This document shows, one piece after another, positions 19,473-64,000 of a stretch of 64,000 nucleotides of DNA (the first letter of the stretch is position 1; every line of letters begins with the position of its first letter). The translations under genes and the position numbers were made by a program. The stretch comes from Flavobacteriales bacterium (lineage in GTDB: Bacteria > Bacteroidota > Bacteroidia > Flavobacteriales_E > Vicingaceae). The DNA lies in assembly GCA_002401955.1 (NCBI GenBank), contig NVUQ01000013.1, positions 1 through 64,000 on the forward strand. Direction: 5' to 3'. The notes below the pieces were generated by a model, which was given only the letters and a program-made list of their open reading frames with translations, searched no databases and had not been told where the DNA came from.

Positions 19473-19676
19473 TTGAGTCGTTGGGGAGAGCAAATTTTTG
19501 AATCTAAAGATAATTCATGGGACGGAAAAGAGGTAGAAGCAGGAACTTATACTTATAAAATTAAAGTGAAATTTAAGAATAGTAAAAGAGATAAATATGG
19601 GTGGCTCACGCTTCTGTTCCAAACACATGCCATACCGCTCTTGGCTTTGGCTCAAGCCAAAGTAATGGCATAAGTT
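19473..19676 (+). pseudogene. Orphan T9SS type B (CHU_C) sorting-domain fragment
   Basis: The frame reads SRWGEQIFESKDNSWDGKEV, EAGTYTYKIKVKFKN and KYGWLTLLFQ, the central and final strands of a gliding-type sorting domain, with nothing upstream and an unrelated tail (HAIPLLALAQAKVMA) downstream. The sequence differs from the intact domain of the preceding gene, so it comes from another type B gene that has been deleted. Confidence 0.75.
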
Positions 19677-25470: not shown

Positions 25471-25495
25471 CGATTTGCCAACAAAACTATACGTA

Positions 25496-25579
25496 ATAAG
25501 AGTACAAAATCTTGATTTTTCATGCCAAAAAGGACAAAAAATAATATTGAATTTATCTATAAAAATGTTGCTAAAATAA
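25496..25579 (+). pseudogene. 5' remnant of a second ABC ATPase gene
   Basis: The frame reads RVQNLDFSCQKGQKIILNLS, against QVQNLDFSYQKGEKIIDNLS at the start of the intact ATPase gene at 23780, and the DNA shares CAAAATCTTGATTTTTCAT. It ends after 27 codons, before Walker A. A second transporter cassette once followed the first and was lost. Confidence 0.75.
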
Positions 25580-46860: not shown

Positions 46861-49296
46861 TTATAATTTGAATTTTTCAGGAATAACGAATCCTAAACTA
46901 AGTTTTACAGTAAGATTATCTTTTGTTTCGTTAAACTGATAAGGACCATATCGGTAAAAACATCCTGCACCAAAAGAAAGATAAGACCACTTTAAAATGT
47001 GATTAATTACTATTCCCGATTCATAATATCCCTTTTCCATAGTGTTAAAAGTTTCTCCACCATGAGCACCCTCATAAGACAATGCCCCAAAACCAACACT
47101 TGTAGTAATAACAAATTCGGGCTCAAACTTTTTTACTTTAAAGAGTAAAGAACCAAAGCTATGTCTAAAATGAAAGTGAACATACTCGCTAGAAAAGAAC
47201 TCGTAAGGCAACATGGTTTCAAAAGCATTTTCTGTAGATATGTTAATGTTATTATCTACGTTAAATGTTCCTAAAGAACTGTTTAGCTTATGTTGTGGAA
47301 CTCTCCCATGAATATATCCGGTTTCTAAATAAAATTTTGGGTGACCAAAATTTTTGATAAAAAACTTTTTTTCTGCTCTTAAAGTAAATCGGGTATATTC
47401 ATATTCTCCATTAAAGGTTTTAATTCCTTTTTCAATTTTACTGTATAGGATAGGATATTTGCTTGTTATAGGATATTTTCCGTTGGTAGATTTTAGAATT
47501 TTCTCCTTAAAAGCATATCGAAATTCTACACCAATTTCATTAAAAATATAATATTGATCATTCAAAATTGTTGTTGCATCAATTCGTTTTTTGTAATAAT
47601 AATCATTGGTTACTTCAACGGTTTCTTGATTGGTAAATAGGTTAACTTTTAAATAGCGTAAAGTTCTAAATTGTAAGCGAGCTTCTATTTTCTCAATATT
47701 ATTCATTCTTTCTAGGTTAAAATACTTTCTATTACTTGCTGTAGAAAATGCTGGTGTTTTATACCCAATAAAATCAACAACCCCAGGTTCAGCAAGATCT
47801 TTTTGATGAGAAATATTAAATTCAATATCGTTTCTTTGATTGATTAAAAAGTTAATATCTCCACCATATTTTTCTGTTTTATCACCAAATGCATACGCAC
47901 CATAACCACCAATAGAAAACCATTTAGAGAGGTTCTTACTGGTGTGTAATCCAACCCCAACTCGTTGCCCTTCATATTTAGTGTATTCAAGAAAACGGTT
48001 TAGGTCAAAATCGATAATTCCCCAATTTATTTTACCTGTAGATAGCCCTTCTAGCAGTTTAAATTTTTTATCAAAGTGATGTACTTTACTAATACTGTCA
48101 ATTGAATGATAAGAGCTTATTTCTTTTTGTGATAATGGATTTTCTCGATGGTTATCCCAAAAAGCATTATCTTTTTTTGTGGCATCATCATCAATTTCTG
48201 TTACTACATTGCTAAATTCTTTGGTAGAAATTTCAGGGTTTATTTCAATGTTTTTGATATAGGTTTTATTCACTCCAATTGTTTTGATTTCACCTCCCTT
48301 ATAAGGATCCATAATAATATCGGAGTTTAATTGCACAGGAAACCAACTGCCACTTATTTTTTTATAGCGTTGTTGTATTTTAATAGAAATCATTTCATCT
48401 TCAGCAAAAGGCTCTGCAATAACATTTTGTAGTGCATAACCATCGGTATTAATGTAAAGCAACCCTTTTAAAGCGTCAAAATTTTTCCCTTTTCGAGGTT
48501 TAAACGACAATACAAAAACAGTATCACTTCCGTTAAATGTGGTATCTTCTATCAAAAACAAATACTTACTAATACTGTTTTCAGAAATAGGATTGAGGTA
48601 AGAGTTTTCTAATAATTTTAATGTAGGGTTGTAAAAAGTAAAGGATTGTAATTCGGTTGCAATTAATGCAAATGAAGGGTTTTTTAAACCAGAAACTTTA
48701 GAGGCAATAACTTTTTCATAACTCTTGTCGGGTTGTTTATACTTTCGTTCGGTAACGGATTCCATCATAAAAAAGTAATGATCTTCTAACCATTTCATGG
48801 TATTTATACTACTAGAATCTTGTTCAGAATTTTCTTTATTAGTAACAGCTAAACTGTCAATCAACATCGAAAAATACATTTTGTTGTAAGATTCGTATTT
48901 AAAGTTTAAACTCTTTTCAGGATTATTTATTTTTCGGTTTTTTATTACTTCTTTAATAATACGCTCGGCAGGATTAACTCCTGGAAAGACTTTGAATTCC
49001 TCTAATGCAAAAGTGGTTTGTTGCATTTTAATAAGGATATTTTGCTTGCTAGTTACATTAATTTTTTGAGGTTTATAACCAACGTAACTCAGTGTTAAAG
49101 TTTGTATTGTATTGGGAGAGTTAAAATTAAAATTACCATCAATATCTGTTGTTGTTCCTACACGTTCATCATTAACAACAATGTTTACAAAAGCAAGTGG
49201 TTCTTTAGTGTTGCTATCAATTACTTTACCTTTTATTTGATGCTGAGCAAACAGGTAGCAAGGGAACAAACATATTAAAAGAGTTAAGATTCTCAT
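46861..49296 (-). CDS. DUF5686 outer-membrane protein with CarboxypepD_reg domain
   Basis: 811 aa. Signal peptide (MRILTLLICLFPCYLFA), a carboxypeptidase regulatory-like Ig domain (IKGKVIDSNTKEPLAFVNIV, VGTTTDIDGNFNF), then the DUF5686 body with NPAERIIKEVIKNRKINNPE and a long C-terminal set of beta strands ending LSLGFVIPEKFKL, consistent with an outer-membrane barrel. Common in Bacteroidota, role not defined. Its N-terminal architecture is repeated in the next gene upstream. Confidence 0.88.
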   Translation of the reverse strand: MRILTLLICLFPCYLFAQHQIKGKVIDSNTKEPLAFVNIVVNDERVGTTTDIDGNFNFNSPNTIQTLTLSYVGYKPQKINVTSKQNILIKMQQTTFALEEFKVFPGVNPAERIIKEVIKNRKINNPEKSLNFKYESYNKMYFSMLIDSLAVTNKENSEQDSSSINTMKWLEDHYFFMMESVTERKYKQPDKSYEKVIASKVSGLKNPSFALIATELQSFTFYNPTLKLLENSYLNPISENSISKYLFLIEDTTFNGSDTVFVLSFKPRKGKNFDALKGLLYINTDGYALQNVIAEPFAEDEMISIKIQQRYKKISGSWFPVQLNSDIIMDPYKGGEIKTIGVNKTYIKNIEINPEISTKEFSNVVTEIDDDATKKDNAFWDNHRENPLSQKEISSYHSIDSISKVHHFDKKFKLLEGLSTGKINWGIIDFDLNRFLEYTKYEGQRVGVGLHTSKNLSKWFSIGGYGAYAFGDKTEKYGGDINFLINQRNDIEFNISHQKDLAEPGVVDFIGYKTPAFSTASNRKYFNLERMNNIEKIEARLQFRTLRYLKVNLFTNQETVEVTNDYYYKKRIDATTILNDQYYIFNEIGVEFRYAFKEKILKSTNGKYPITSKYPILYSKIEKGIKTFNGEYEYTRFTLRAEKKFFIKNFGHPKFYLETGYIHGRVPQHKLNSSLGTFNVDNNINISTENAFETMLPYEFFSSEYVHFHFRHSFGSLLFKVKKFEPEFVITTSVGFGALSYEGAHGGETFNTMEKGYYESGIVINHILKWSYLSFGAGCFYRYGPYQFNETKDNLTVKLSLGFVIPEKFKL

Positions 49297-49402: not shown

Positions 49403-52400
49403 TTAGTGTGAAGGAGAATTCCTATAAAGGTCAAAAATAATAGCATACTTCATCGCCAAAGCTTTATAATATGAATACCTTCCAGAATCACCTCCATGAC
49501 CAGCATTTAGATTAGTTTTTAATAGAAGCACATTATTATCCGTTTTAAATTTTCGCAATTTTGCTACCATTTTTGCTGGCTCCCAATAACCAACCCTGCT
49601 GTCGTTTATTCCTGTAAAAAAGAACATTGGTGGGTAGTCTTTTTGATCTACGTTTTCGTAAGGAGAATAAGATTTCATATAGTTGTAATATTTTTTGTCG
49701 TTGGGATTCCCCCACTCTTCATATTCTCCTGTTGTTAAAGGTAATTTGTCGTCTAACATTGTATTAACAACATCTACAAAAGGAACATCTAAAATTACTG
49801 CCTTAAACAATTCTGGACGCATATTAGCAACAGCACCCATTAATAAACCCCCAGCACTTGCACCTTGGATGGTAATATTTCCTTTAGTTACATAGTCATT
49901 TTCAATTAAATATTCGGCACAGTCTATAAAATCGGTAAACGTATTTTTTTTATTGAGCATTTTCCCATCTAAATACCATTTTTCGCCTAAATCATTTCCC
50001 CCTCTAATGTGAGCCACAGCATAAATAAACCCTCTGTTTATTAACGGAAATAAAGAAGTGTTAAACCCAACACCTTGCCCTGCACCATAGGAGCCATAAG
50101 AGGTTAATAACACTTTGTTTTTTTGAGGTTCTTTTTTATTATAAGCTCCCCATTTATTATAAAATAAAGTAATAGGTATTTTTTTGCCATCTTTTGCTGT
50201 TGCCCAAATTCTTTTTGTTTTGTAGGGAGAGTATTTGCTTATTCGCCATTTTCTACGTTTAACAATACGTTTTTCTTGAGTTTTCATATGGTAATTGTAA
50301 ACAGTTCCAGGAGTTATATAAGAGCTGTAACTAAACTGTAAAGAGTCAGTATCAAAATCTGGATTGTAACCTAATCCGATAGAATAATAATCTTCTTTAA
50401 ACTTAATATTGTGACTTTTGTTACTGGCTAAATTTAGAACACGCAACCTTGGTTGAGCATTTTCCTTTTCACTCAAGACAATGTATTTATCGAAAATTTC
50501 AAAACTACTTAACAACACTTTTTTATTATGAGGAACGAGAGTTTTCCATTTGTTTATAGCGTAATTTGAGGTGTCTGCTACTACAATTTTATTATTTAGT
50601 GCTTTTTTGTTGGTTAAAATATAAAACTGGTTTTTTGAATGGGTAACCGTATATTTATGCTTATCTTCTCTAAAATAAAAGAGCTTAGGAGTAAGGTCTG
50701 TGGCATTGGTTCTAATATAATATTGTTCTGAAGAGGTGGAACTAGCTGATTGAATAAATATAAACTTCTTCGATTTTGATTTCCATACTCTTAATTCGAA
50801 CAAAACATCCTTTTCATACTTAATTACTTTATCATTTTTCTGATTTGAGAGTAGTTGGTGAGTTGCAATCTTATTTGTTCTGTTGGTTTTCTTTTCTTGC
50901 GAAGCATATATTATAGTAGTATCATTTACCCAAACCAAATTAGATGCAAAGGTTAAACTATCTTTTAAGAGTGTATTTGTTTTGAGGTTTTTAAATTTAA
51001 TAACATAATTATCGTTTCCGGTAGTGTTTTCTGAATACGCCATTATGTTATTGTTAGGGCTAATAGTAATTCCTCCAGCATTGTAATATTGTTTGTCTTT
51101 TGCCATTTCTTGAACATCTAACAAAACCTCTTCTTTAGTACTGTTCTCTTTTTTACGATAATAAATTGGATACTCGTTTTCGCCAATGAATTTATAGTGA
51201 TAGATGTATCCATTCTTTTTTACAGGTAAGGATTTATAGTTTTTTTCGGTTGCTCTTTTTAGTTCAGAAAATAGACTTCGTTGTTGTTTTCTAAGCGGAA
51301 TAAAATAGTTGTCGAAATACTTGTTTTCGGCATTAATATATTCCATAACGGCTGTATTTTGTTTGGGTTGTGTTACATCTTTCATCCAAGCATAATTGTC
51401 AATAATTTCCTCTTTATGAAGGTTGTACCTAAAAGGGATTATATCTGCCATAGGAGCTTTTAGTGTTGTATCTCTTCTATGCTTATCAACAAATTGTTTT
51501 TCTAAAGGTTTTTTAAATTCCATATCTTTTCTGATATGGGTTGGAATATTAAATTCAGGCTTTTCTTGGCTGTATTTGGTCCAAAAAGTATCGTTATAGT
51601 ACAGCGGAAAATCAAACAACTGGTTAGCATCAGAATTGGTAAAAAGTGCTTCCTTTTTAAAGGAGTTTTTAGTGTTAGGTTTGATGTCGTGGATGGAAAT
51701 TTCTAAAGTTGCATTGTATGGAGTTACAGTGTTATTAGTAGTGTCCTTATAAATAAATTCATCTTGTTGTTTAATCGAAGTAAGGTAATACTTCCCATCT
51801 ATCAATGTATAATTTTCTTTAATCCGGTAATCGAAGTGTTTAATGTTCATTGTGGTATATGTACAGAGGTGTTTCTTTAAGTTTTTGGATATGGCGTACT
51901 CTATCGATTTAATGGCAAAAGTATTTCTATCAATAACGATTTTTCCTTCTTGGGTGTTATTTCTAAAACGCTTGTTATATCTCCATTTTTTGATTGTTGT
52001 ATCTCTTATTTCCTTAGCTGCTTTTGGGATAAAATAAAGAACATAGTTGTACTCTTTGTTAATGGTATCCAATTCTTCTTTAAGGGTATAATCAAACTCA
52101 TTAAATTTCTTTTTATCTAAAAAATCTTGTCGAAATTTCACTCGATCTTTTCCTAATAAACCTAAAGGACCCCCTTCTATGTTGGCGGTTAAGTTTCGTT
52201 GCGTTAAATTTTCGCTACTACGTGATTCGATAATTTTAAGCTGATCCTTTTTTAAGGTTTTAGACCAAAAGTGATATCGATGCAGCCGTTCTCCTGGCCA
52301 TTGTGGTAAATCACTTAAAGTGTTTGAGGATTCCCAGGTACTTATATATGCTTTGCGTTTATACTTTTTATTTTGGTAAGGAGCATAGTTAAATTCACAA

Positions 52401-52870
52401 ACGGCATCGGCATACTTAATGTGCCTACCACTTTCAGTAAGTGTTTCACGATAGTAAGCATCAAATGAAATGGTATCGGTACTGTAGTTCTTTTCTATGC
52501 TTTTTAATACTTTTTTAAGCATTTGTTTGGGCGTATAATCTTTACGAGAAACAACGGTAAACTGAGCAAGATTAGCAGCATCTTTGCTAATGTAAATGGT
52601 GTTTCCTGTTGGGTTTAGAGTCGAGATTAGAATCAGTTTTTTTGAGTATCCTAAAAAAGAGATGGTTAGTTTTTCTGCTGCATATTTTTTTGGAATGGTC
52701 AATTTAAACTTTCCATTTTCATCAGTAGCAGTTCCAAAACCTTTTCCTTCTATAAGGACTGTTGCAAATGATGCTGGTTGTTTGTCGTCATTACAAATTA
52801 TTTTTCCTGTAATAGTTTGTGCACATAAAAACTTAAACCCAATTAGGGTGAATACCAATAAATACCTCAT
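49403..52870 (-). CDS. Fusion of CarboxypepD_reg/DUF5686-like module and S9 oligopeptidase B
   Basis: 1155 aa. Signal peptide (MRYLLVFTLIGFKFLCA), CarboxypepD_reg domain (ITGKIICNDDKQPASFATVL), a region like the DUF5686 N-terminal half (TPKQMLKKVLKSIEKNYS, to about residue 460), then a complete oligopeptidase B-type S9 enzyme from PFRYNLHKEEIIDNYAWMKD, with beta-propeller and alpha/beta-hydrolase. Catalytic residues are visible: Ser in TIQGASAGGLLMG (~1005), Asp in GINDSRVGYWEP, His in NAGHGGDSGR. Oligopeptidase B cleaves after basic residues and is normally cytoplasmic or periplasmic without such an N-terminus. The fusion would place the peptidase in the envelope. No frameshift is seen. Confidence 0.85.
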   Translation of the reverse strand: MRYLLVFTLIGFKFLCAQTITGKIICNDDKQPASFATVLIEGKGFGTATDENGKFKLTIPKKYAAEKLTISFLGYSKKLILISTLNPTGNTIYISKDAANLAQFTVVSRKDYTPKQMLKKVLKSIEKNYSTDTISFDAYYRETLTESGRHIKYADAVCEFNYAPYQNKKYKRKAYISTWESSNTLSDLPQWPGERLHRYHFWSKTLKKDQLKIIESRSSENLTQRNLTANIEGGPLGLLGKDRVKFRQDFLDKKKFNEFDYTLKEELDTINKEYNYVLYFIPKAAKEIRDTTIKKWRYNKRFRNNTQEGKIVIDRNTFAIKSIEYAISKNLKKHLCTYTTMNIKHFDYRIKENYTLIDGKYYLTSIKQQDEFIYKDTTNNTVTPYNATLEISIHDIKPNTKNSFKKEALFTNSDANQLFDFPLYYNDTFWTKYSQEKPEFNIPTHIRKDMEFKKPLEKQFVDKHRRDTTLKAPMADIIPFRYNLHKEEIIDNYAWMKDVTQPKQNTAVMEYINAENKYFDNYFIPLRKQQRSLFSELKRATEKNYKSLPVKKNGYIYHYKFIGENEYPIYYRKKENSTKEEVLLDVQEMAKDKQYYNAGGITISPNNNIMAYSENTTGNDNYVIKFKNLKTNTLLKDSLTFASNLVWVNDTTIIYASQEKKTNRTNKIATHQLLSNQKNDKVIKYEKDVLFELRVWKSKSKKFIFIQSASSTSSEQYYIRTNATDLTPKLFYFREDKHKYTVTHSKNQFYILTNKKALNNKIVVADTSNYAINKWKTLVPHNKKVLLSSFEIFDKYIVLSEKENAQPRLRVLNLASNKSHNIKFKEDYYSIGLGYNPDFDTDSLQFSYSSYITPGTVYNYHMKTQEKRIVKRRKWRISKYSPYKTKRIWATAKDGKKIPITLFYNKWGAYNKKEPQKNKVLLTSYGSYGAGQGVGFNTSLFPLINRGFIYAVAHIRGGNDLGEKWYLDGKMLNKKNTFTDFIDCAEYLIENDYVTKGNITIQGASAGGLLMGAVANMRPELFKAVILDVPFVDVVNTMLDDKLPLTTGEYEEWGNPNDKKYYNYMKSYSPYENVDQKDYPPMFFFTGINDSRVGYWEPAKMVAKLRKFKTDNNVLLLKTNLNAGHGGDSGRYSYYKALAMKYAIIFDLYRNSPSH

Positions 52871-53041: not shown

Positions 53042-54058
53042 GTGATTACTTACGATCATATCAATTTACTTTCTAAACTTTCTGCTCAGAGAGTAGTAAA
53101 CGCTATGCGAGTTAAATGGAGTTTCCATTACTCTAAATGGGTTAAAAAACCAGTTTTAAAAGCTCAACCGATCAGCATTACAATAGAGCCTACAACGGCT
53201 TGTAATTTGGGTTGTCCGGAATGCCCAAGTGGGTTAAAAATGTTTACTAGACCCGAAGGAAATTTAAAACAAGACTTTTATAAAAAGGTAATCGATCAGA
53301 CTTATAAAAAGTCTTATTACTTAAACTTTTACTTTCAGGGAGAACCGTTTATTAATCCAAACTTTTTGGAGATGGTGAGTTATGCCAATTCTAAAAAAAT
53401 GTACACAGCAACATCTACCAACGCTCATTTTTTAAATGAAGAAAATGCTAAAAAGACGATAGAAAGTGGTTTAAGTAGACTAACCATTTCTATTGATGGA
53501 ACAACTCAAGAAACTTATGAAAGCTATCGAAAAAATGGAAGTTTAGAAAAAGTTATTGAGGGTGCCAAGAATGTCATCAAATGGAAAAAGGAGTTAAAGT
53601 CTAAAACACCTTACATCATTTTTCAGTTTTTGGTAGTGAAACCTAATGAGCACCAAATTGAAGACGCAAAAAAGTTAGCTGATGAATTAGGGGTGGATGA
53701 AATTCGTTTTAAAACCGCTCAATTGTACGATTACAAACATGGTAATGCGTTAATGCCAAGCATAGAGAAATACTCCCGTTACAGAAAAAAAGCTGATGGA
53801 ACTTATCGTTTGAAAAACAAAATGCTCAATGAGTGTTGGCGTATGTGGAGCTCCTGTGTTATTACTTGGGATGGTAAAGTAGTGCCTTGTTGTTTTGATA
53901 AAGATGCAACGCATCAATTGGGAGAGATAGCACAACAACCTTTGGCAGCAATTTGGTCCTCAAAATCTTATAACGGTTTTAGAAAAGCCCTTTTAACCAA
54001 TAGACAAAGCATAGATATATGCCAAAATTGTACCGAAGGAACTAAGGTTTGGGAGTAG
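53042..54058 (+). CDS. Radical SAM/SPASM domain protein
   Basis: 338 aa. The iron-sulphur motif CNLGCPEC (CxxxCxxC) is in IEPTTACNLGCPECPSG near residue 55, followed by NFYFQGEPFINPNF and SRLTISIDGTTQETYESYRK. The C-terminal SPASM-type part has CWRMWSSCVITWDGKVVPCC and DICQNCTEGTKVWE, giving cysteines for a further cluster. Members of this Bacteroidota group have no established substrate; there is no precursor peptide obvious nearby. The first codon recorded here is GTG; the first ATG is some 20 codons later (MRVKWSFH), also possible. Two copies of its 3' end lie downstream. Confidence 0.88.
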   Translation: MITYDHINLLSKLSAQRVVNAMRVKWSFHYSKWVKKPVLKAQPISITIEPTTACNLGCPECPSGLKMFTRPEGNLKQDFYKKVIDQTYKKSYYLNFYFQGEPFINPNFLEMVSYANSKKMYTATSTNAHFLNEENAKKTIESGLSRLTISIDGTTQETYESYRKNGSLEKVIEGAKNVIKWKKELKSKTPYIIFQFLVVKPNEHQIEDAKKLADELGVDEIRFKTAQLYDYKHGNALMPSIEKYSRYRKKADGTYRLKNKMLNECWRMWSSCVITWDGKVVPCCFDKDATHQLGEIAQQPLAAIWSSKSYNGFRKALLTNRQSIDICQNCTEGTKVWE

Positions 54059-54071
54059 GAAGCCTCCCCAA

Positions 54072-54120
54072 CCCCTCCGAAGGAGGGGCTATTTGTCATT
54101 CTCAGCTTGACTGGGAATCT
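54072..54120 (+). repeat. Extragenic hairpin and GTCATT...AATCT element
   Basis: CCCCTCCGAAGGAGGGG hairpin (54072-54088), then GTCATTCTCAGCTTGACTGG and GAATCT (54095-54120). The second part recurs inverted at 59107-59131. Hairpin may also end radical SAM transcription. Confidence 0.7.
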
Positions 54121-54216
54121 ATAATTTCATTTTAATGGTAAATTGAAAATAATGAATTTTCATTAAACAACCTATATGTTCATTTTCAGTAAAAAAATGG
54201 ACGCGTTAATAGTTGG

Positions 54217-54255
54217 TGTCCAATTTGTACTGAAGGAACTAAGGTTTGGGAGTGA
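54217..54255 (+). pseudogene. Radical-SAM gene tail remnant, copy B
   Basis: Thirteen codons CPICTEGTKVWE and TGA, matching the end of the intact gene (CQNCTEGTKVWE). The identical DNA stretch ACTAAGGTTTGGGAGT covers the stop. It lies 15 bases from the Fic gene end. Confidence 0.7.
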
Positions 54256-54270
54256 AGAAGTTTCTCGGAG

Positions 54271-55416
54271 TTAATTTTCTAATTCTCTGTGAAATATTTT
54301 AAAATATTCTTTAAATATAAACTTCCTATTCCTTTTGTAACCAGTTAATTCAGATAATATATTTAAATCAATGAGATCTTTTATTAACCTATTTGCTGTT
54401 GATGGAGAGATTTTCAAAAGCTCCGAAACTTGTTTAGAATCGGTAATAGGTACCTGAAAAAGTTGTTTGATTAATCGTTGTCCATTTTCAGTTTTGCTTC
54501 CAAGTTTTGGGAGTCGTTTAGTTTCAATATCATTTTTTAAAGTAATAATATCTTTAAACACTTGTATGGATTCTTTTGAAGTTTCAATTACCCCTACAAG
54601 GAAGAATTTTATCCATTGAGTTATGTTACTGGTTAAACGTACCGTCATTAGGTTATCATAATAGTATCCTTTATTTTTTTCAAAAAAGTCAGATAAATAG
54701 AGTGATGGCTTTTTTAAGACATCATTGCTAACCAAATAAAGAGTTATTAAGAGTCTTCCAAGCCTACCATTTCCATCTAGGAATGGGTGTATAGTTTCAA
54801 ATTGATAATGAGCAATCGCAATTTTAATTAGATGCGGAACAAAATAGTCATCATCGTTGATGAATTTTTCTAAATCACTCATTAAATCATTAACTTCTGA
54901 ATGATGAGGAGGGATAAAAATAGCATCTTTTAATGTTGCTCCTATCCAATTTTGGCTAGTCCTAAATTCTCCTGGAATTTTATGTTTTCCCCGAACACCA
55001 GAAAGAAGTGTTTTGTGCGTTTTTTTAATTAGGCGGGTTGAAATAGGGAGTTTTTCTAATTCCTTTATAGAAGTGCTAATAGCTTTTATATAGTTTTGTA
55101 CTTCTGCCCAATCATCTCGTTTTTCTGGATTAATATCTTCCTCTCTTATTAAGGCTTCTTCCATATTTGTTTTTGTACCTTCTATTCTACTCGAAGTGGT
55201 AGCTTCTTTAAGAATGTGCATGGTAATAAAAAAGTCAACATCAGGGATTATTTGGGAAAAAGCATTTAATTCACCTATTAATCTGTTAGCTTCTGCAAGT
55301 AATTTATTTACTTCAGGTGTTGATATAATCCATTCGCGATTAATTTTTTCAGGTAAAAAGGATTTGTATTCTCTTTGTTTAATGTGTTTCCCTGAATTGA
55401 ATGCTTCTAAATCCAT
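54271..55416 (-). CDS. Fic family protein, probable AMPylator with winged helix
   Basis: 381 aa from MDLEAFNSGKHIKQ; the frame is open nine codons upstream. N-terminal inhibitory helix motif SSRIEGT fits (S/T)xxxE(G/N), class II Fic. The Fic core ETIHPFLDGNGRLGRLLITL matches HPFxxGNGRxxR and keeps the catalytic His and the Arg, so it should transfer AMP (or similar) onto a protein hydroxyl; target unknown. The C-terminus has a winged helix (ISPSTANRLIKDLIDLNILS). It stands alone, opposite to its neighbours, and is flanked by radical-SAM tail remnants, suggesting insertion. Confidence 0.9.
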   Translation of the reverse strand: MDLEAFNSGKHIKQREYKSFLPEKINREWIISTPEVNKLLAEANRLIGELNAFSQIIPDVDFFITMHILKEATTSSRIEGTKTNMEEALIREEDINPEKRDDWAEVQNYIKAISTSIKELEKLPISTRLIKKTHKTLLSGVRGKHKIPGEFRTSQNWIGATLKDAIFIPPHHSEVNDLMSDLEKFINDDDYFVPHLIKIAIAHYQFETIHPFLDGNGRLGRLLITLYLVSNDVLKKPSLYLSDFFEKNKGYYYDNLMTVRLTSNITQWIKFFLVGVIETSKESIQVFKDIITLKNDIETKRLPKLGSKTENGQRLIKQLFQVPITDSKQVSELLKISPSTANRLIKDLIDLNILSELTGYKRNRKFIFKEYFKIFHRELEN

Positions 55417-55533
55417 GTTTTCAAAAATGATGTATAAATACAAATATAGTAATTTATATTTTCGTTATATTGATTTATTGAAAATATAAAATGTATTAAT
55501 TTTTATTTTTGAAGAAAATGAAAACTAAAAGGA

Positions 55534-55623
55534 TACAATGGTTTCAGAAAAGCTTTACTCACCAATCGACAAAATATAGATATTTGCCAAAATTGTACAG
55601 AAGGCACTAAGGTTTGGGAGTAA
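55534..55623 (+). pseudogene. Radical-SAM gene tail remnant, copy C
   Basis: 29 codons, YNGFRKALLTNRQNIDICQN then CTEGTKVWE and TAA, differing from the intact gene in only one residue while many codons differ synonymously. A formerly functional paralogue, cut off just before this point. Confidence 0.85.
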
Positions 55624-55746
55624 AATTTTGCTATTAAGAGTTTTAAGGAGTGTATAATGTGAGCTACTTTTTTCGTTTATTTACCTCTAAAAATTATTTA
55701 ATACTGCTCGAAAATATTGTTTATAAATTGTTTTTGCCTAGTAAAT

Positions 55747-55780
55747 GTTCCAAACTACACGTTTTTGTTCCGTATGACAT
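55747..55780 (+). promoter_or_regulatory. Direct-repeat site, copy 1 (upstream of the histidine kinase)
   Basis: GTTCCAAACTACAC, then GTTTTT, then GTTCCGTATGACAT: two 14-bp half-sites 20 bp apart, 59 bases before the kinase ATG. See copies at 58229 and 61082. Candidate LytTR-binding site. The remaining gap 55624-55839 shows no gene. Confidence 0.65.
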
Positions 55781-55839
55781 AAAAGGATTTAGTTTGTTTG
55801 CTAAAAACTTTGTTTCTTTGAAATCTAATCTGTAATTAG

Positions 55840-58215
55840 ATGAAAATGATAAAAAATATAACGGTTATACTATTAGGATTTTGCTTAACGAACCTATGTA
55901 TAGCACAGAATTCTAATTCTGCAACTATTAAGTATGCTGATAAAGAATTTTATTTAGTGGATAGTTTGGATTTGGAAGTGATTTCTGAATCGGATCGTAA
56001 ATTATTAGACAGTTGTCTAACCGTTTTTCATAAAGCAAAAGAGGACACCTCTAAAGTAGATGCTATAAACCAGATTGTGGAAGTAAGCTTAGACGAGAAC
56101 TTACGTCCAAAATACAAAATCTGGCTTTATCATTTTTTGAAAGAAAAATTAAAACAGCAACACTCCACTATCACTACTAAACGTTTAAAAATAGGTTTAG
56201 CTGTAGCCATAAATGAAATAGGGTTTATTTATATTAATCAGGGAGATTTACCCAAAGCTTTAGACTATTTCCATAAAAGTTTAGCCATTCATAAAGAGAT
56301 GGGTGATAAAAAAGGAATAGCTGGAAATTATAACAATATTGGATTTATTTATAACAGACAGGGAGACATATCTAAAGCTTTAGATTATTATCATAAAAGT
56401 ATTGCTGTGAGAGAAGAAATTGGCGATAAAGAAGGAACAACTGAAGCTTATAACAACATTGGATTAATCTCCCAGCTTCAGGGAGATATACCCAAAGCTT
56501 TAGACTATTTCCATAAAAGTTTAGCCATTCAAAAAGAGATTGGTGATAAAAAAGGAATAGCTTTAAGTTACAGTAATTTTGGGTTTCTTTATCGCGAACA
56601 GGGAGACATACCTAAAGCTTTAGACTATCACCATAAAAGTTTAGCCATTCAAAAAGAGATTGGTAATAAAAAAGGAATAGCCAGAAGTCACAACAATATT
56701 GGATTTATTTATGACAGTAAAGGAGACATACCTAAAGCTTTAGACTATTATCATAAAAGTTTAGCTGTGAGAGAAGAGATAGGTGATATAAAAGGAATAG
56801 CTGTAATTCACAACAATATTGGAGCTATATATTATGGTCAAGGAGATTTGCCCAACGCTTTAGACTATTTCCATAAAAGTTTAGTCATCAGAGAAGAGAT
56901 TGGTGATAAAAAAGGAATAGCGGGAAGTATCAACAATATTGGATTTATTTATATGAAACAGGGAGATATGCCCAAGGCTTTAGACTATTACCACAAAAGT
57001 TTGGCTAACTATGAAGAGATGGGTGATAAAAAAGGAATATCTATAACTTATAACAACATTGGTTTTATTAATGACGAACAGGGAAATTTCCCCAAGGCTT
57101 TAGACTATTACTATAAAAGTTTAGCCATTAAAGAAGAAATTGGCGATAAAGAAGGAATGGTTAAAAATTACAGCAATATTGGGAATATAGAGCTAGAGCA
57201 TGGTAGCGTTCAACAAGCTAAAGAAAATGGTTTAAAAAGTTTAAATCTCGCACAGGAATTAGGTTATCCTGATGCGATAAAAAATGCTGCCTCTTTATTA
57301 ACTAATGTGTATGAAAAACAAGGGAAAGGTATGGAGGCATTAAAAATGCACAAATTGTTTATAGTTATGAGAGACAGCATTAACAATGAGACTACACAAA
57401 AAGCAGCAATTCAGCAAAATGTTAAATATGAATACGAAAAACAAAAAGCAATTGATGATTTAAAGAATGAGCAATTGCTAACTATAGAGAAAGAAGAAAA
57501 AGATAAGCAGCGTGTTATTTTATATGGAATTGGAGCTATACTCACTTTAGTAATTGTTTTCTCTGGGTTTCTATTTAGTCGTTATCGAGTTTCTCAAAAA
57601 CAAAAATTGGTAATTGATAAAACGAACAGTGAGCTAAATATTGCCAATGAAAATTACCAAATGTTACTTGTAGAGAGTAACCATAGAATAAAAAATAATT
57701 TACAAATGATTTTATCTATGCTAGAATACAAAGCAATAAAATCGGGTAAGCGTAGCGAAGAGTTAGAAAAAATTACGGGTAACATAAAAGCAATTAGCTC
57801 CTTGCATAAACACTTATCTTTAGATATCCATAACCCTTATGTAGACCTTGTTGTGTATTTAAAAGAAATCGTATCCTTATACAAAGAGTTTTCATCCCAA
57901 AACTTTGAGGTAAAATCTGATCTTAAAGCAATAGATATACAAAGTGAACGCATTGTTTATTTTGGCTTGTTATTTAACGAAATGTTATCAAACACGATAG
58001 AACATAGCTTAAGTAAGGATACTAAAATGGAGGTTCATTTACAACAAGAAAAAGATGGCTTTTCATTTTCTTATAAAGACGGAGCTGCTTGGAATAACGA
58101 TAAAGATGCTGGATTGGGCTCTTCATTAATCCCTGAATTAGTAGAGCGAGTTGAAGGAGAAAATTACAGTTTAGATAGTACACAAGGGTTGTATTATTTT
58201 GAGTTTGAGTCGTAA
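55840..58215 (+). CDS. TPR sensor histidine kinase (HisKA_2 type)
   Basis: 791 aa. Signal peptide (MKMIKNITVILLGFCLTNLC), a helical start, then ten or so TPR units of 40 residues (YNNIGFIYxxQGDIPKALDY, YHKSLAIxEEIGDKKGIA), one membrane helix (VILYGIGAILTLVIVFSGFLF), a short coiled coil, and a kinase core with the phosphoacceptor His in ESNHRIKNNLQMILSMLEYK and ATP-binding N-box FNEMLSNTIEHSL, with GLGSSLIPEL. It should autophosphorylate and pass phosphate to the LytTR regulator encoded 87 bases downstream. TPR units are highly uniform as 120-bp DNA repeats. Copies of the direct-repeat site lie upstream of it and between it and the regulator. Confidence 0.9.
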   Translation: MKMIKNITVILLGFCLTNLCIAQNSNSATIKYADKEFYLVDSLDLEVISESDRKLLDSCLTVFHKAKEDTSKVDAINQIVEVSLDENLRPKYKIWLYHFLKEKLKQQHSTITTKRLKIGLAVAINEIGFIYINQGDLPKALDYFHKSLAIHKEMGDKKGIAGNYNNIGFIYNRQGDISKALDYYHKSIAVREEIGDKEGTTEAYNNIGLISQLQGDIPKALDYFHKSLAIQKEIGDKKGIALSYSNFGFLYREQGDIPKALDYHHKSLAIQKEIGNKKGIARSHNNIGFIYDSKGDIPKALDYYHKSLAVREEIGDIKGIAVIHNNIGAIYYGQGDLPNALDYFHKSLVIREEIGDKKGIAGSINNIGFIYMKQGDMPKALDYYHKSLANYEEMGDKKGISITYNNIGFINDEQGNFPKALDYYYKSLAIKEEIGDKEGMVKNYSNIGNIELEHGSVQQAKENGLKSLNLAQELGYPDAIKNAASLLTNVYEKQGKGMEALKMHKLFIVMRDSINNETTQKAAIQQNVKYEYEKQKAIDDLKNEQLLTIEKEEKDKQRVILYGIGAILTLVIVFSGFLFSRYRVSQKQKLVIDKTNSELNIANENYQMLLVESNHRIKNNLQMILSMLEYKAIKSGKRSEELEKITGNIKAISSLHKHLSLDIHNPYVDLVVYLKEIVSLYKEFSSQNFEVKSDLKAIDIQSERIVYFGLLFNEMLSNTIEHSLSKDTKMEVHLQQEKDGFSFSYKDGAAWNNDKDAGLGSSLIPELVERVEGENYSLDSTQGLYYFEFES

Positions 58216-58228
58216 ATAGAGCACAAAT

Positions 58229-58262
58229 ATGTCACACGGAACAAAAACGTGTAGTTCGGAAC
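58229..58262 (-). promoter_or_regulatory. Direct-repeat site, copy 2 (upstream of the LytTR regulator)
   Basis: On the minus strand GTTCCGAACTACAC, GTTTTT, GTTCCGTGTGACAT; the same geometry as copy 1, reversed relative to the gene. 40 bases before the regulator ATG. Confidence 0.65.
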
Positions 58263-58302
58263 ATTTTAAAAGTAGTTACGTTTTATCTGTTTAGATTTAC
58301 CA

Positions 58303-58959
58303 ATGATGAAAGTTGTAATTATAGAAGATGAATTTTACGTTACTAAACACTTAAGTGCTTTAGTAGAAGAGGCTGGGTATGATTGTGTAGGGATTTATCA
58401 CAGTGGCGAGGCCTTTCTTAACAAAACGGATTGGGATTTTGATGTAGCTATGGTAGATATCTTTTTATCGGTAAAACTTACTGGATTAGATATTGCAAAG
58501 GAGATTAAATCACAAAATAAATCCTTCTTTTTTTTAACAGCTAACCAGGATGAGAAAACGCTTAAAGCTGCTGCAATGCTTGCTCCAAATGCATATATTA
58601 CAAAGCCTTTTAATCCTAATGATGTAATTGCGGCTTTAAAAACAATTGAATACCAACTTCCTTCTTTTATAGAAATTATTGATACGCATGGAAAACGAAA
58701 CATAAATCCTATGGATATCGTTTTTGTAAAATCTGATCGTTCTTATATAGAAATACAAACTTTGGAGGAAAAAATTGTTCAGAGAAAATCGTTGTCTGAA
58801 ATGGCAGAAGAATTACCTGATTTCTTTATTAGAGTGCACCGCTCTTATCTTGTCAATCATCATTTAATTGATTACCAAAGCACTGTTATAGTCGCTGTAA
58901 ACGGTCATGAAATTCCTATTTCTAGAACTTATAAAGATAATTTAGGAGAGATCTCATAA
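58303..58959 (+). CDS. LytTR-family response regulator
   Basis: 218 aa. Receiver domain with acidic pair VVIIEDEF, phospho-acceptor Asp in VAMVDIFLS, Thr/Ser in FFLTANQD and Lys in YITKPFNP; then a LytTR DNA-binding domain (INPMDIVFVKSDRSYIEI, FIRVHRSYLVNHHLID). It works with the adjacent TPR kinase. LytTR regulators bind pairs of direct half-sites about two helix turns apart; such a site lies in front of its own gene, in front of the kinase gene and upstream of the LRR gene. Confidence 0.94.
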   Translation: MMKVVIIEDEFYVTKHLSALVEEAGYDCVGIYHSGEAFLNKTDWDFDVAMVDIFLSVKLTGLDIAKEIKSQNKSFFFLTANQDEKTLKAAAMLAPNAYITKPFNPNDVIAALKTIEYQLPSFIEIIDTHGKRNINPMDIVFVKSDRSYIEIQTLEEKIVQRKSLSEMAEELPDFFIRVHRSYLVNHHLIDYQSTVIVAVNGHEIPISRTYKDNLGEIS

Positions 58960-59093: not shown

Positions 59094-59106
59094 TCTATTT
59101 GATTCA

Positions 59107-59131
59107 GATTCCCAGTCAAGCTGAGAATGAC
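59107..59131 (-). repeat. GTCATT...AATCT extragenic element, inverted copy
   Basis: Reverse complement of the 54095-54120 sequence (GTCATTCTCAGCTTGACTGG plus GAATCT). It lies between the LRR stop and its terminator, and is absent at the matching place after the HYR gene, so it is an insertion. Confidence 0.75.
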
Positions 59132-59139
59132 GTCTGTTC

Positions 59140-60840
59140 TTACTGTTTCACAATTCTTTGAGTAATGGTATTATCTCCATTTGTGATTTTCACAAAATAG
59201 ATTCCTTTACCATAAGCTTCTAGATTAATAATTGTTTGTTTGGAATTAAGCTGTTGGTTAATAATTACTTTACCGAGCATATCATAAACAGCAATAGAAG
59301 TATTCTTTTTTACCCCTGGTACATCAATGGATATATTTCCAGTTGTTGGGTTTGGATAGCATTTAAGGGTAGAAAAATTTTGCTCTAGGTCATTTATTCC
59401 AACAGTACAGGGGCCACAATTGGTACTAAAAGATACTCCAGCATCAACACTTGATATCCAATTAGTTGTTGCCCAAGTAACATCATCAACTTCAATACAG
59501 CTTAGATTTGGATTGTTAATCGAAGAAAAAATTGTGAAATTAGAATTATTATTGTTTCTAATATCTAAACAGCTAAGCGCATTGTTATGACACTCCAAAT
59601 CCGTTAATGCAGTGTTCAGAGTGAAATCCAATCGAGTCAATTGATTGTTATAACACTGTAAATATGTTAAAGCAGTATGTTGTGAAACATCTAAACTAGT
59701 CAATTGATTACTACTACACTCTAAATTTGTTAAAGCAGTATTTTGAGAAATATCTAAAAGAGTCAATTGATTTTGATAACACGCTAAAGATGTTAAAGCA
59801 GTATTTTGAGTAACATTTATACTTGTTAATGGGTTTTGGGCACAACGTAATTCTGTTAAAGCAGTATTTTGAGTAACATCTAAACTAGTTAATTGATTAC
59901 CAACACACGTTAAAAATGTTAAAGCAGTATTTTGAGTAACATCTAAACTAGGCAATTGATTATAACGAACCTCTAACCATGTTAAAGCAGTATTTTGGGT
60001 AACATCTAAACTAGTTAATTGATTAGCACTACACCCTAAATTTGTTAAGGCAGTATGTTGTGAAACATCTAAACTAGTTAATTGATTGTCATAACACTGT
60101 AAATATGTTAAAGCAGTGTTTTGGGTAACATCTAAACTAGTTAATTGATTAGCACCACACCCTAAATTTGTTAAGGCAGTATTTTGAGTAACAACTAAAC
60201 TAGTCAATTGATTGGTAAAACACTGTAAGTTTGTCAAAGCAGTACTTTGGGTAACATTTAGATTAGTCAATTGATTGTTATAGCATATTAAAGATGTTAA
60301 AGCAGTATTCTGAGTAAAATCTAAAAGAGTCAATTGATTTTGATAACACCCTAAAGATATTAAAGCAGTATTTTGAGTAACATCTAAAAGAGTCAATTGA
60401 TTATTACTACACCCTAAAGATGTTAAAGCAGTATTTTGAGTAACATCTAAACTAGTCAATTGATTATTACTACACCCTAAATATGTTAAGGCAGTATTCT
60501 GAGTAACATCTAAAAGAGTCAATTGATTTTGATAACACCCTAAAGATGTTAAGGCAGTATTTTGAGTAACATCTAAACTAGTCAACTGATTGGCAAAACA
60601 GTCTAAATATGTTAAAGCAGTGAAATCTTGAATTCCAGTTAAGTCTGATATCATTAAATTTGAGACATCTAAAGAAGTTATAGTGTTAATATTGGAAGTA
60701 GGTACACTACCGTCAGGAATTCCTGTGTCATAACCTAAATTAATTAAAGCCTGCTCAAAGTTTGAATCAGGTATAGCCGTTTGAGAAATACATACATTAG
60801 ATAATGCTGTAATTAATAAAAGTGATAGTGTTTTTTTCAT
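59140..60840 (-). CDS. Secreted leucine-rich-repeat protein, T9SS type A
   Basis: 566 aa. Signal peptide (MKKTLSLLLITALSNVCIS), a short cap (AIPDSNFEQALINLGYDTGI), then about 19 LRR units of 21 residues with the pattern L-T-x-L-D-V-T-Q-N-T-A-L-T-x-L-x-C-x-x-N-Q, and a type A sorting domain (LKCYPNPTTGNISIDVPG, GKGIYFVKITNGD, RIVKQ). A surface or released adhesin of BspA-like style. The repeats are near-identical as 63-bp DNA units (about 59600-60640). A direct-repeat site lies 241 bases upstream. The last ~40 codons are DNA-identical to the HYR gene's end. Confidence 0.9.
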   Translation of the reverse strand: MKKTLSLLLITALSNVCISQTAIPDSNFEQALINLGYDTGIPDGSVPTSNINTITSLDVSNLMISDLTGIQDFTALTYLDCFANQLTSLDVTQNTALTSLGCYQNQLTLLDVTQNTALTYLGCSNNQLTSLDVTQNTALTSLGCSNNQLTLLDVTQNTALISLGCYQNQLTLLDFTQNTALTSLICYNNQLTNLNVTQSTALTNLQCFTNQLTSLVVTQNTALTNLGCGANQLTSLDVTQNTALTYLQCYDNQLTSLDVSQHTALTNLGCSANQLTSLDVTQNTALTWLEVRYNQLPSLDVTQNTALTFLTCVGNQLTSLDVTQNTALTELRCAQNPLTSINVTQNTALTSLACYQNQLTLLDISQNTALTNLECSSNQLTSLDVSQHTALTYLQCYNNQLTRLDFTLNTALTDLECHNNALSCLDIRNNNNSNFTIFSSINNPNLSCIEVDDVTWATTNWISSVDAGVSFSTNCGPCTVGINDLEQNFSTLKCYPNPTTGNISIDVPGVKKNTSIAVYDMLGKVIINQQLNSKQTIINLEAYGKGIYFVKITNGDNTITQRIVKQ

Positions 60841-61081
60841 GATAATTGTGTTTTAATTATTCTAAATTAATAGTGAAGTTTTTTGCAAAAAAAGCATTAA
60901 ACGTTTTTTATTCCAAAAAAACAGCGGGTAGTTTTTCCTACCTCACACACTTAATACGCTGTTTATTAGAGTTTTAAATTTCAGTTATTTTGTTAAAACT
61001 TTCACTTTTTTATTTTTTAAGGTCATTTAATGATTGATTTTGTCCAAAAATATTAGATAGGGCTTACTTTTTTAAATTAAT

Positions 61082-61115
61082 GTTGCAGACGACATGTTTT
61101 TGTTCCGTATGACAT
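61082..61115 (+). promoter_or_regulatory. Direct-repeat site, copy 3 (upstream of the LRR gene)
   Basis: GTTGCAGACGACAT, GTTTTT, GTTCCGTATGACAT; first half-site weaker. Same reverse orientation relative to its gene as copy 2. Lies in the 344-bp gap 60841-61184, otherwise without a gene. Confidence 0.6.
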
Positions 61116-61140
61116 AAATTGGATTGTTTTCCATAATAAA

Positions 61141-61184: not shown

Positions 61185-64000
61185 TTATTGTTTTACAATT
61201 CTTTGCGTAATGGTATTATCTCCATTTGTGATTTTCACAAAATAGATTCCTTTACCATAAGCTTCTAGATTAATAATTGTTTGTTTGGAATTAAGCTGTT
61301 GGTTAATAATTACTGCACCAACAACACTGTAAACAATAATACTTGAATTATCATCTAATTGATCTAAACTAACCGTAAAGATTCCTTTTGATGGGTTAGG
61401 ATAAATTTTATAGTTATCAACTAATAATTGATCATTGTTTACTCCAGTAACAGTTACCGGAATACAAGCCGAAGTATCTGTACAACCATTTTGCGTTACC
61501 ACAACAGCATAAGAACCATTAACTGTAACAGTATAACTCGCATTAGTTGCTCCTGGAATCACACTCATGTTGTTGTTACAATCTAACCATTGGTAAGTTG
61601 CTCCAGTAGCATTAGCTGTAAGAGCAGGAGAAGCATTGTTTACAGTTACATCAACACTATTAATTGTTACTTGCTGATTCGTAATACTATCACAACCATT
61701 AAATGCACCAGCAAAAGAAGTATCATTGACCATAGTAGATATATAATACATTGTACCATTATAATCTAAACTATCACAACCAACTAAAGCTGTTGGGTTA
61801 GCAACAGGAATAGCATTAATAGTAATACTACTGTTAGCTGAAGCTGAAGCACAACCACCTGCAGCAGCTATATCATTAGCAACAGTATATGTTCCTGGAG
61901 TACTAGTAGCTAAATTAACCTCTCCTGAAGCAGTATTTATTGATAACCCTGTACTAGGAGTAGCAGAGAATACACCTGCACTTGCTCCAGCACCAAAAGT
62001 TACTGTTGTAGTGCCTATTGCACAATAAGGAGTTCCTGTATAACTAAATGTAGCATCTGGAGCAGTTGTAACACTCACGTTTACATTAGAACTATTAGGA
62101 CAGGTTCCGGTTGTTGTATAAGTAACTGTAAATGGACCTCCAACTCCAGTAGTTGCTAAATCAATCTCACCAGTTACTGTATTAATACTTAAACCTCCTG
62201 TACCACTAAATGATCCACTTCCTAAACCAGTAATTGTTGGAGTAGGATTTGATCCAGTTAAACAAAAAGTAGATGATGCATAGTTAAATGACGCATCATC
62301 TGCTGCATTGATAACTACATCAAAATTACAACTAGTAGTATTGCTATTTCCATCAGTAGCTAAGTAAGTAACAGTTGTAGTTCCTACATTAAATGTTGTA
62401 CCACTTGCATCTGCACTACCTGAGCCTGTTGTTACTCCAGATAAAGTATAAGTAACAGTTACTCCAGAACAATTATCACTTGCTGTTGGTGCTATACCAG
62501 TTACTACTGGATTACAAGTAGCAACATTTCCTGGGCAACTAATTGTTGGATTAGTTGCATCACTTACTACTACATCAAAGTTACAGTTCGCTGTATTTGT
62601 TGAACCATCTGTTGCTGTTAATACAATGTTTGTAGTTCCTACTCCTACAACTGTTCCTGCTGCTGGTACTTGTGTTACCACAACTCCTGAACAGTTATCA
62701 GTTGCTGTTGCCAATCCTGTGTAATCTGGTAAGCTAAAGTTACAACTAGCGTCTACTGTTCCCACTTGGTTTGCTGGACAACTAATTGTTGGATTAATTC
62801 CATCACTTACTACTACATCAAAGTTACAGTTCGCTGTGTTGCTAGAACCATCTGTTGCTGTTAATACAATGTTTGTAGTTCCTACTCCTACAACTGTTCC
62901 TGCTGCTGGTACTTGTGTTACCACAATTCCTGAACAGTTATCAGTTGCTGTTGCCAATCCTGTGTAATCTGGCAAAGAGAAATTACAACTAGCGTCTACT
63001 GTTCCCACTTGGTTTACTGGACATGATAATATAGGTGATATTGTATCAAGTACTGTAACTACTCCTACACAGTTTGATGAATTATTACTTCCATCTGTTA
63101 CGGATAGGGTTACACTGTTACTTCCTGCATCCGCACAGGTATATGTTTTTGATGTATACTTACCAAATTCTAATTGAAATGCAATATCACCCCATGCACA
63201 ACAACCTGAACTCGCATCATAATTCCAAATAAATTGGCCACCAGCATAAACATCACCAGCGTAATATATATCGGATGTGCCATCTAAAATAAACGAATAA
63301 GAATTTCCCGAGATTACTGAAAGTGGAGTAGACAATTGCACCGTAGTCCATGTTGAACCACCAGTTGCATCCACATAAGTAACCCCTGATTCTTGGTAGA
63401 TCGGTGTCCCTACAGAACCGGCAGTTCCACTTCCGCTTCCGCCATTATAGAAATGAATAGTATTTCCTGTAGAATTACCATTTACTTTAAAACTAATGCT
63501 TGTTAAATCTCCAGTTACCGGAGCAGTAAAGGACTGACCATGCCCAACTGAAGAACCATTATTATTTTGAAACGGTTGACTTAATTCTACCGGATTATCT
63601 ATAAAAATTAATGATGCGATCGAAAAACAATTATCAATTGAACCTGCATCCACATCGTTTGGAGTAATAGTAACATTTCCAGAGCCATCAAGGTAAGCCA
63701 AAATATTTTGGCAAACTACCGTTGGTGCCGTAGTATCGCTTACCACCACATCAAAGTTACAGTTCGCTGTGTTGCTTGAACCATCTGTTGCTGTTAATAC
63801 AACGTTTGTAGTTCCTACTCCCACCACTGTTCCTGCTGCTGGCACTTGTGTTACTGTTGGTGACCCAGTACAGTTATCTGCTGCTGTTGCCAACCCTGTA
63901 TAATCTGGTAAGCTAAAGTTACAACTCGGGCCTACTGTTCCCACTTGGTTTGCTGGACAACTAATTGTTGGATTAGTAATGTCCTGTATTATTGTTACAG
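61185..64000 (-). CDS. HYR-repeat secreted protein, T9SS type A, 5' end beyond window
   Basis: At least 938 aa; the frame remains open to the right edge, so the GTG at 63944 is not the real start. It contains several HYR domains of ~80 residues (SCPANQVGTVDASCNFSLPD, YTGLATATDNCSG, TQVPAAGTVVGVGTTNIVLT, ATDGSSNTANCNFDVVVSD), one interrupted by a jelly-roll insert (ISFKVNGNSTGNTIHFYNGG, ~residues 120-265), then Ig-like parts (SSTFCLTGSNPTPTITGLGS) and a type A sorting domain ending RIVKQ. A large extracellular adhesin. HYR units are repeated almost exactly at the DNA level (62.56-63.03 kb and 63.74-63.96 kb). Confidence 0.9.
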   Translation of the reverse strand, partial: VTIIQDITNPTISCPANQVGTVGPSCNFSLPDYTGLATAADNCTGSPTVTQVPAAGTVVGVGTTNVVLTATDGSSNTANCNFDVVVSDTTAPTVVCQNILAYLDGSGNVTITPNDVDAGSIDNCFSIASLIFIDNPVELSQPFQNNNGSSVGHGQSFTAPVTGDLTSISFKVNGNSTGNTIHFYNGGSGSGTAGSVGTPIYQESGVTYVDATGGSTWTTVQLSTPLSVISGNSYSFILDGTSDIYYAGDVYAGGQFIWNYDASSGCCAWGDIAFQLEFGKYTSKTYTCADAGSNSVTLSVTDGSNNSSNCVGVVTVLDTISPILSCPVNQVGTVDASCNFSLPDYTGLATATDNCSGIVVTQVPAAGTVVGVGTTNIVLTATDGSSNTANCNFDVVVSDGINPTISCPANQVGTVDASCNFSLPDYTGLATATDNCSGVVVTQVPAAGTVVGVGTTNIVLTATDGSTNTANCNFDVVVSDATNPTISCPGNVATCNPVVTGIAPTASDNCSGVTVTYTLSGVTTGSGSADASGTTFNVGTTTVTYLATDGNSNTTSCNFDVVINAADDASFNYASSTFCLTGSNPTPTITGLGSGSFSGTGGLSINTVTGEIDLATTGVGGPFTVTYTTTGTCPNSSNVNVSVTTAPDATFSYTGTPYCAIGTTTVTFGAGASAGVFSATPSTGLSINTASGEVNLATSTPGTYTVANDIAAAGGCASASANSSITINAIPVANPTALVGCDSLDYNGTMYYISTMVNDTSFAGAFNGCDSITNQQVTINSVDVTVNNASPALTANATGATYQWLDCNNNMSVIPGATNASYTVTVNGSYAVVVTQNGCTDTSACIPVTVTGVNNDQLLVDNYKIYPNPSKGIFTVSLDQLDDNSSIIVYSVVGAVIINQQLNSKQTIINLEAYGKGIYFVKITNGDNTITQRIVKQ

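Follow-up and report, generated by a model that had tools for sequence, protein, structure and literature searches.

Orphan 3′ ends of a radical SAM gene suggest stepwise acquisition of genes behind it in a Flavobacteriales genome

Introduction

Why should the 3′ end of a conserved enzyme gene recur several times downstream of the intact gene, with unrelated genes between the copies? The question is raised by the locus analyzed here, which contains an intact radical SAM/SPASM gene (radSAM) and a Fic gene placed between two copies of the radSAM 3′ end. Many variable spots in bacterial genomes show no visible mobile element, and gene gain at such spots usually goes unseen. At the radSAM locus the joins have left readable scars, and they have done so at a conserved enzyme gene instead of a toxin gene. 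Since the scars are readable, the acquisitions become countable, probably orderable, and testable against relatives. As discussed below, a repeated gene tail need not imply a lost paralogue.

The analyzed stretch of DNA (the window) comprises 64,000 nucleotides and corresponds to bases 1-64000 of contig C49 (69,900 bases). The genus of the source genome (G000) includes a metagenome-assembled genome (MAG) labelled Vicingus serpentipes. The assembly of the source genome consists of 150 contigs and is 83% complete.

Results

Orphan copies of the radSAM 3′ end

As listed in Table 1, the 3′ end of radSAM (end A) recurs downstream, on the same strand, in the form of three orphan copies (tails B, C and D), all of which lack the remainder (5′ part) of the gene. 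These tails split approximately 13 kb of unrelated genes into (i) a 158-bp spacer, (ii) the Fic gene and (iii) a five-gene sensor/T9SS/LuxR block.

Table 1. Positions of radSAM, its orphan 3′ ends and the neighboring features (window positions, unless the contig is named).
Feature	Position	Strand	Remarks
DUF5686 protein gene	46861-49296	-	conserved upstream neighbor marking the locus in relatives
Intact radSAM (end A)	53042-54058	+	338 aa; Pfam PF04055 and PF13186
Segment A-B	54059-54216		158-bp spacer with common intergenic repeat (approx. 54092-54125)
Orphan tail B	54217-54255	+	last 12 codons and TGA stop; reads CPICTEGTKVWE, then stop
Fic gene, SoFic-like (segment B-C)	54271-55443	-	Pfam PF02661 and PF13784; HPFLDGNGR and SSRIEG intact
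Orphan tail C	55527-55623	+	31 codons and TAA stop; residues 308-338
C-D gene 1	55840-58215	+	TPR-repeat sensor histidine kinase (HisKA_2)
C-D gene 2	58303-58959	+	LytTR response regulator
C-D gene 3	59140-60840	-	leucine-rich-repeat protein, T9SS type A tail
C-D gene 4	61185-64000, continuing to contig position 65510	-	large HYR-domain protein, T9SS type A tail
C-D gene 5	contig 65787-67166		7TMR-DISM/LuxR-type regulator; outside the window
Orphan tail D	contig C49: 67147-67224		residues 314-338 and TAA stop; beyond the window

An unprompted repeat search aligned the intact end (53962-54057) with positions 55527-55622 (82% identity over 96 nt), and identified a 40-nt family with three copies, at 54020, 54217 and 55585. 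In a preliminary description of the locus two repeats of the radSAM end had been reported. The first, of 13 codons including the stop (54217-54255), was recovered by this search; the second, placed at 55534-55623 (30 codons), is real, but it starts at 55527 and comprises 31 codons plus the stop. The further copy, D, lies outside the window and had been missed.

Each copy stops at the natural place, with TAG (A), TGA (B), TAA (C) or TAA (D). The amino acid identity to the intact end is 94% for C, 83% for B and 76% for D, and with tblastn, at a database size fixed at 20 kb, the E-values were 1.8e-18 for C, 2e-4 for B and 1.9e-10 for D. Tail D was also detected in a separate search (E = 1.6e-5), and the match between A and B has a blastn E-value of 5.5e-6 in the whole genome. 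The sequence set used for the E-values of the tails comprised 101 sequences, in which some contigs occur twice (e.g. L036 and L054), so that it does not represent 101 genomes; a match in L132 was dropped, being read as that locus's own gene past a frameshift. On sequence grounds, chance is not a serious explanation of the repeated tails.

Ends A and C differ at 10 synonymous and 2 nonsynonymous sites in 31 codons. The preliminary description was therefore right in stating that copy C differs mostly at synonymous sites, and this pattern indicates that tail C evolved in a working gene. That the tails might act as selected peptides was considered at the level of reading frames: the frame of tail C is closed by a stop codon shortly before the tail, and it contains none of the start codons ATG, GTG and TTG. 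The motif CxNC(T/S)EG ends the protein in 97 of 97 radSAM gene ends (some contigs counted twice), and this conserved end is a possible anchor.

A control scan covered 27 sequences of the source genome and its relatives (434,564 bases), in which 304 ORFs reached a length of 150 aa or more (E≤1e-3; matches inside other ORFs, chiefly common T9SS ends, set aside). More than one orphan terminal fragment was found for radSAM alone (tails C and D; tail B is too short for the threshold applied). Two other genes have one such fragment each, neither of them comparable to the radSAM tails: a 22-residue head fragment (25493-25558) derived from the gene at 23780-24682, and a T9SS-end-like fragment (19473-19616) similar to the end of the 36171-37958 gene.

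Cargo between the tails

The Fic gene lies between tails B and C in the opposite orientation, just as had been described. Its product carries both a Fic domain and the Fic motif HxFxxGNGR, and it belongs to the Fic (Fido) family. It matches PDB entries named SoFic (E-values from 4.7e-36 to 3.2e-34), the sequence match with the SoFic-type adenylyltransferases 3eqx and 3zcn extending over residues 42-381. Since its score (175.8 bits) is below the cut-off of the NCBIfam SoFic equivalog model (550), the protein is a relative of SoFic, not SoFic itself.

The only close orthologue of this gene detected in the genus (87% identity) is in genome G002, at another genomic place with no radSAM tails. Comparison with this orthologue indicates that the likely start codon is the ATG near 55416. 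The homology between the two genomes covers approximately 54270-55505, which is almost exactly the interval between B and C. Segment B-C is therefore essentially the Fic gene together with its upstream region, without a mobility gene.

Beyond tail D there is a convergent T9SS protein gene, whose end lies 15 bases past the stop codon of the tail. Several further repeats were observed in this part of the contig. A repeat of approximately 39 nt occurs in segment C-D at 55743-55781, 58228-58266 (inverted), 61079-61116 and contig position ~65720-65753 (L034:3720-3753). Its 22-nt core, TTTTTGTTCCGTATGACATAAA, was found (with up to 2 mismatches) at 3 sites in the source genome, all within segment C-D, and at none in the other 13 genomes of the genus; it may serve the genes of the sensor, the T9SS proteins and the LuxR-type regulator as a shared operator, or may be a repeat that was co-acquired. 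The two neighboring T9SS genes share a 157-nt 3′ end (59140-59296 and 61185-61341; 91% identity), differ in their middle parts and have upstream regions that look alike by eye, and we read them as mosaic surface-protein genes. The intergenic repeat GTCATTCTCAGCTTGACTGGGAATC, present at 54092-54125 and 59106-59131, has many sites across the genomes of the genus.

radSAM and its surroundings in related genomes

A radSAM match at E≤1e-40 was obtained in 93 of 100 genomes (the source genome included), and it is a single match in 92 of these 93; the exception, G051, has a second, partial match on another contig. No full-length tandem radSAM copies were found in the relatives among these 93 genomes. 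The nucleotide identity between A and C (81.7%) falls within the range obtained for A and the orthologues of 12 genus members (68.8-86.0%). Since the distance between A and C equals that between species, C may simply be the allele of another species, or an earlier resident one.

The DUF5686 gene directly precedes radSAM in 8 of the 12 genus relatives that contain the latter. A gene encoding a 1155-aa protein with a carboxypeptidase-regulatory domain and a prolyl oligopeptidase (49403-52870) is placed between the DUF5686 gene and radSAM in the source genome, and adjoins radSAM in G009. Given these two arrangements, the left side of radSAM is also variable.

On the right side, the tyrosyl-tRNA synthetase gene tyrS (family assignment confirmed) is located downstream of radSAM on the same contig in 10 of the 14 genomes of the genus. 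In these ten relatives the gap between both genes ranges from 76 bp (G008) to 8.7 kb (G007), and its gene content differs. The two genes are on separate contigs in the source genome, G006 and G009, and radSAM was not found in G011. In G005, genes of the Fic-family mobile mystery protein B and of protein A are located directly after radSAM (L043:10137-11185), so that a second, different Fic-family gene is present at the same hot spot.

The family was surveyed for additional tails with the 60-residue radSAM end (E≤0.001), and matches were obtained in 44 of 46 genomes; tail B was below the threshold. A match in G040 adjoining the full-gene match of that genome was read as its own gene past a frameshift and dropped, and 11 matches of at most 36% identity, in frames longer than 300 aa, were attributed to different radical SAM proteins. 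Extra short radSAM tails are present in only two of the 46 genomes, the source genome and G006. Displacement that leaves scars is therefore rare, although the interval is variable.

The orphan tail of the sister genome

Genome G006 contains one orphan tail on contig C15 (residue 296 onward, with one TAA inside), and tyrS follows 5.5 kb downstream. The cargo of this tail differs from that of the source genome. The intact radSAM of G006 is on contig C56, with 329 bases left to the contig end. Both gene ends of G006 align with each other across the stop codon into the end of a convergent gene, which behind the tail encodes a 1438-aa T9SS type B protein. If, as we infer, the two contigs are linked, it looks as if the orthologous radSAM-adhesin block of a donor had been stacked before the resident one. 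The nearest match of the G006 tail is the radSAM end of G006 itself (86% identity over 93 nt), which would also fit a duplication inside this genome.

Discussion

A model of serial displacement

The site after radSAM appears to be an acquisition hot spot that has grown by serial displacement through one-sided recombination, and we assign to this reading a probability of approximately 0.6. A fragment from a related bacterium, carrying a radSAM end and its own downstream cargo, would recombine within the resident radSAM, while its far end would join, with no homology needed, inside the tail of the resident gene. radSAM would stay whole with the end of the newcomer, the cargo would be placed behind it, and the old end of the resident gene would be left downstream as a scar. 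Repeated events would generate a series of scars whose age increases with the distance from radSAM, so that D would have been followed in time by C and then by B, A being the end in present use, and the Fic gene would have arrived as the cargo of one such event. Integration of a linear fragment by homology-facilitated illegitimate recombination and a single crossover with a circular one are both compatible with the data. The data show the scars and how far they have diverged, single radSAM matches for almost all relatives, an interval that varies and an orphan tail in the sister genome; the order of events, the donors and the route we infer. That D is the oldest scar is suggested by its position, and D also has the lowest amino acid identity (76%).

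We count in favor of displacement that the three tails end at the natural stop, lack the 5′ part of the gene and set apart unrelated cargo. The left edges of the tails are unequal (residues 296 in G006, 308 in C, 314 in D and 327 in B), as would be expected of non-homologous joins. The orthologue-like distance between A and C, the orphan tail of G006, the variable gap between radSAM and tyrS, the lack of a recombinase gene among the ORFs scanned and the conserved CxNC(T/S)EG end also count for displacement. The last 30 nt of tail B, stop included, are identical to the radSAM end of G010 (30/30), with 29/30 matching in G003 and 27/30 in the genome's own end A; the identity with G010 lends displacement weak support, given the near-equal match of G003. 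ComEC-type proteins (PF03772) are encoded in 13 of the 14 genomes of the genus, and DNA uptake is thus plausible; competence is not proven by this, since 10 of 14 control genomes are also positive.

Other observations weaken the case for displacement. None of the genomes searched could be identified as a donor, with this cargo following radSAM, and recognizable tails are confined to two of the 46 family genomes. Whether C is native rather than A was tested by closeness to G004 and G006, with a result that is no more than suggestive (7% of 2000 codon bootstraps contrary). This Fic gene is behind radSAM in no genus relative, as far as the contigs reach, and no homologue of the TPR kinase or of the LytTR regulator was found behind radSAM among these relatives. 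The sequence of contig C49 stops at 69900, before tyrS is reached, and the contig with the genome's own tyrS ends approximately 120 bases before this gene; since both end short of joining radSAM to tyrS, the far side of the array is out of view.

A bolder form of the model, which we consider unlikely, is an integron-like array without an integrase, in which the radSAM end would be a standing capture point and newcomers would bring replacement ends. In such an array the scars would preserve the order of events in time and would also offer short homologies through which single cassettes such as the Fic gene could be swapped or lost, which is equally doubtful. If this were true, many variable spots beside core genes of Bacteroidota may have grown in the same way.

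Alternative explanations

Insertion at the 3′ end of a conserved gene, with the gene restored and its tail displaced, is the classical outcome of site-specific integration. A tyrosine recombinase or a Tn7-like element could use the radSAM 3′ end, so that the tails would be displaced attB ends. The presence of a 16-nt block, ACTAAGGTTTGGGAGT, in all four radSAM ends of the source genome, and of TGGACGC at the left edges of both B and D, is in accordance with such integration. However, the 16-nt block is absent from the G006 tail, and the left edges of the tails from both genomes lie up to 31 codons apart (decay could blur such edges). Moreover, none of the 12 PF00589 integrase matches in the genome is located on contig C49, and the nine main ORFs that follow on this contig from 53 kb onward gave no match to an integrase, transposase or recombinase family (in one of them 919 of 1441 aa were scanned), although a recombinase gene located farther on would be missed, as the contig ends before tyrS. 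We consider this explanation improbable.

The preliminary description had proposed that a second radSAM gene was maintained and later lost, i.e. that the Fic gene entered between or into tandem paralogues whose extra copies decayed to tails. The tails do behave as the ends of real, constrained genes. A second gene is, however, not needed to account for them, since A and C are as distant as orthologues, and the search for relatives with tandem radSAM genes, which this proposal called for, returned a single match in 92 of the 93 genomes. Under this proposal, everything except the last 12-42 codons must have been lost from four extra copies, three of them in the source genome and one in G006. We reject an insertion of the Fic gene into a paralogue: the flank to its left, tail B, consists of a gene end instead of the missing 5′ part. 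What holds from the proposal is that recombination may have brought in the Fic gene, as the tails fit recombination that carries cargo; the need for a second radSAM is unsupported, and tandem paralogues are a highly doubtful explanation.

No more credible is a tandem segmental duplication within the genome, in which the gene end and the neighbor downstream of it would have been duplicated jointly, followed by divergence. The sister genome speaks for such an event, as in both G006 copies the gene end is followed by that of a homologous convergent gene, and its tail is nearest to its own gene. In the source genome, by contrast, the segments hold unrelated cargo, and the copies are as unlike as orthologues of other species.

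An assembly artefact, in which strain variants were wrongly joined in a metagenome-type assembly, is scarcely believable: the fragmented, incomplete assembly and a 38-nt block identical in C and D would allow it, but the left junctions of the tails have no long word in common with radSAM that could cause misjoining, and an independent orphan tail is present in G006.

Comparison with known systems

Integrative elements use attachment sites at gene ends, and Tn7 inserts at glmS. The radSAM locus resembles them in that insertion occurs at the 3′ end of a conserved gene, and differs from them in the lack of a PF00589 recombinase on the contig and in the non-uniform left edges.

The arrangement as such, with an intact gene followed by partial copies lacking the 5′ part, unrelated cargo between them and different alleles (81.7% identity between A and C), is that of a displacement array. 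For the displacement of Rhs C-terminal tips, homologous recombination with circular intermediates was proposed (Jackson et al. 2009, PMC2935791). There, too, partial copies that vary in length line up after an intact gene, each of them marking a displaced downstream unit. In Rhs, it is the C-terminal tip of the gene itself that is exchanged, and the cores repeated at one locus hardly differ from each other, whereas radSAM encodes a conserved enzyme that is complete up to its end, its cargo consists of separate genes, and the copies show between-species divergence.

For T6SS effector-immunity modules of Vibrio cholerae, a mechanism akin to homology-facilitated illegitimate recombination was suggested (Kirchberger et al. 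2017, PMC5361080). This system shares with the radSAM locus the one-sided homology, the non-homologous far end and the older units shifted back. The retained immunity genes of V. cholerae are thought to be protective, whereas no toxin-immunity logic is evident at radSAM.

The hallmark of the Rhs and T6SS systems, that a unit still joined to the intact gene in one strain is seen displaced in a second strain, was not found among the genus relatives, which lowers the case for counting the radSAM locus as a member of these displacement arrays; the claim that it works like them stands. It differs from these precedents in its conserved enzyme anchor, in its cargo of separate genes and in the between-species divergence of its tails.
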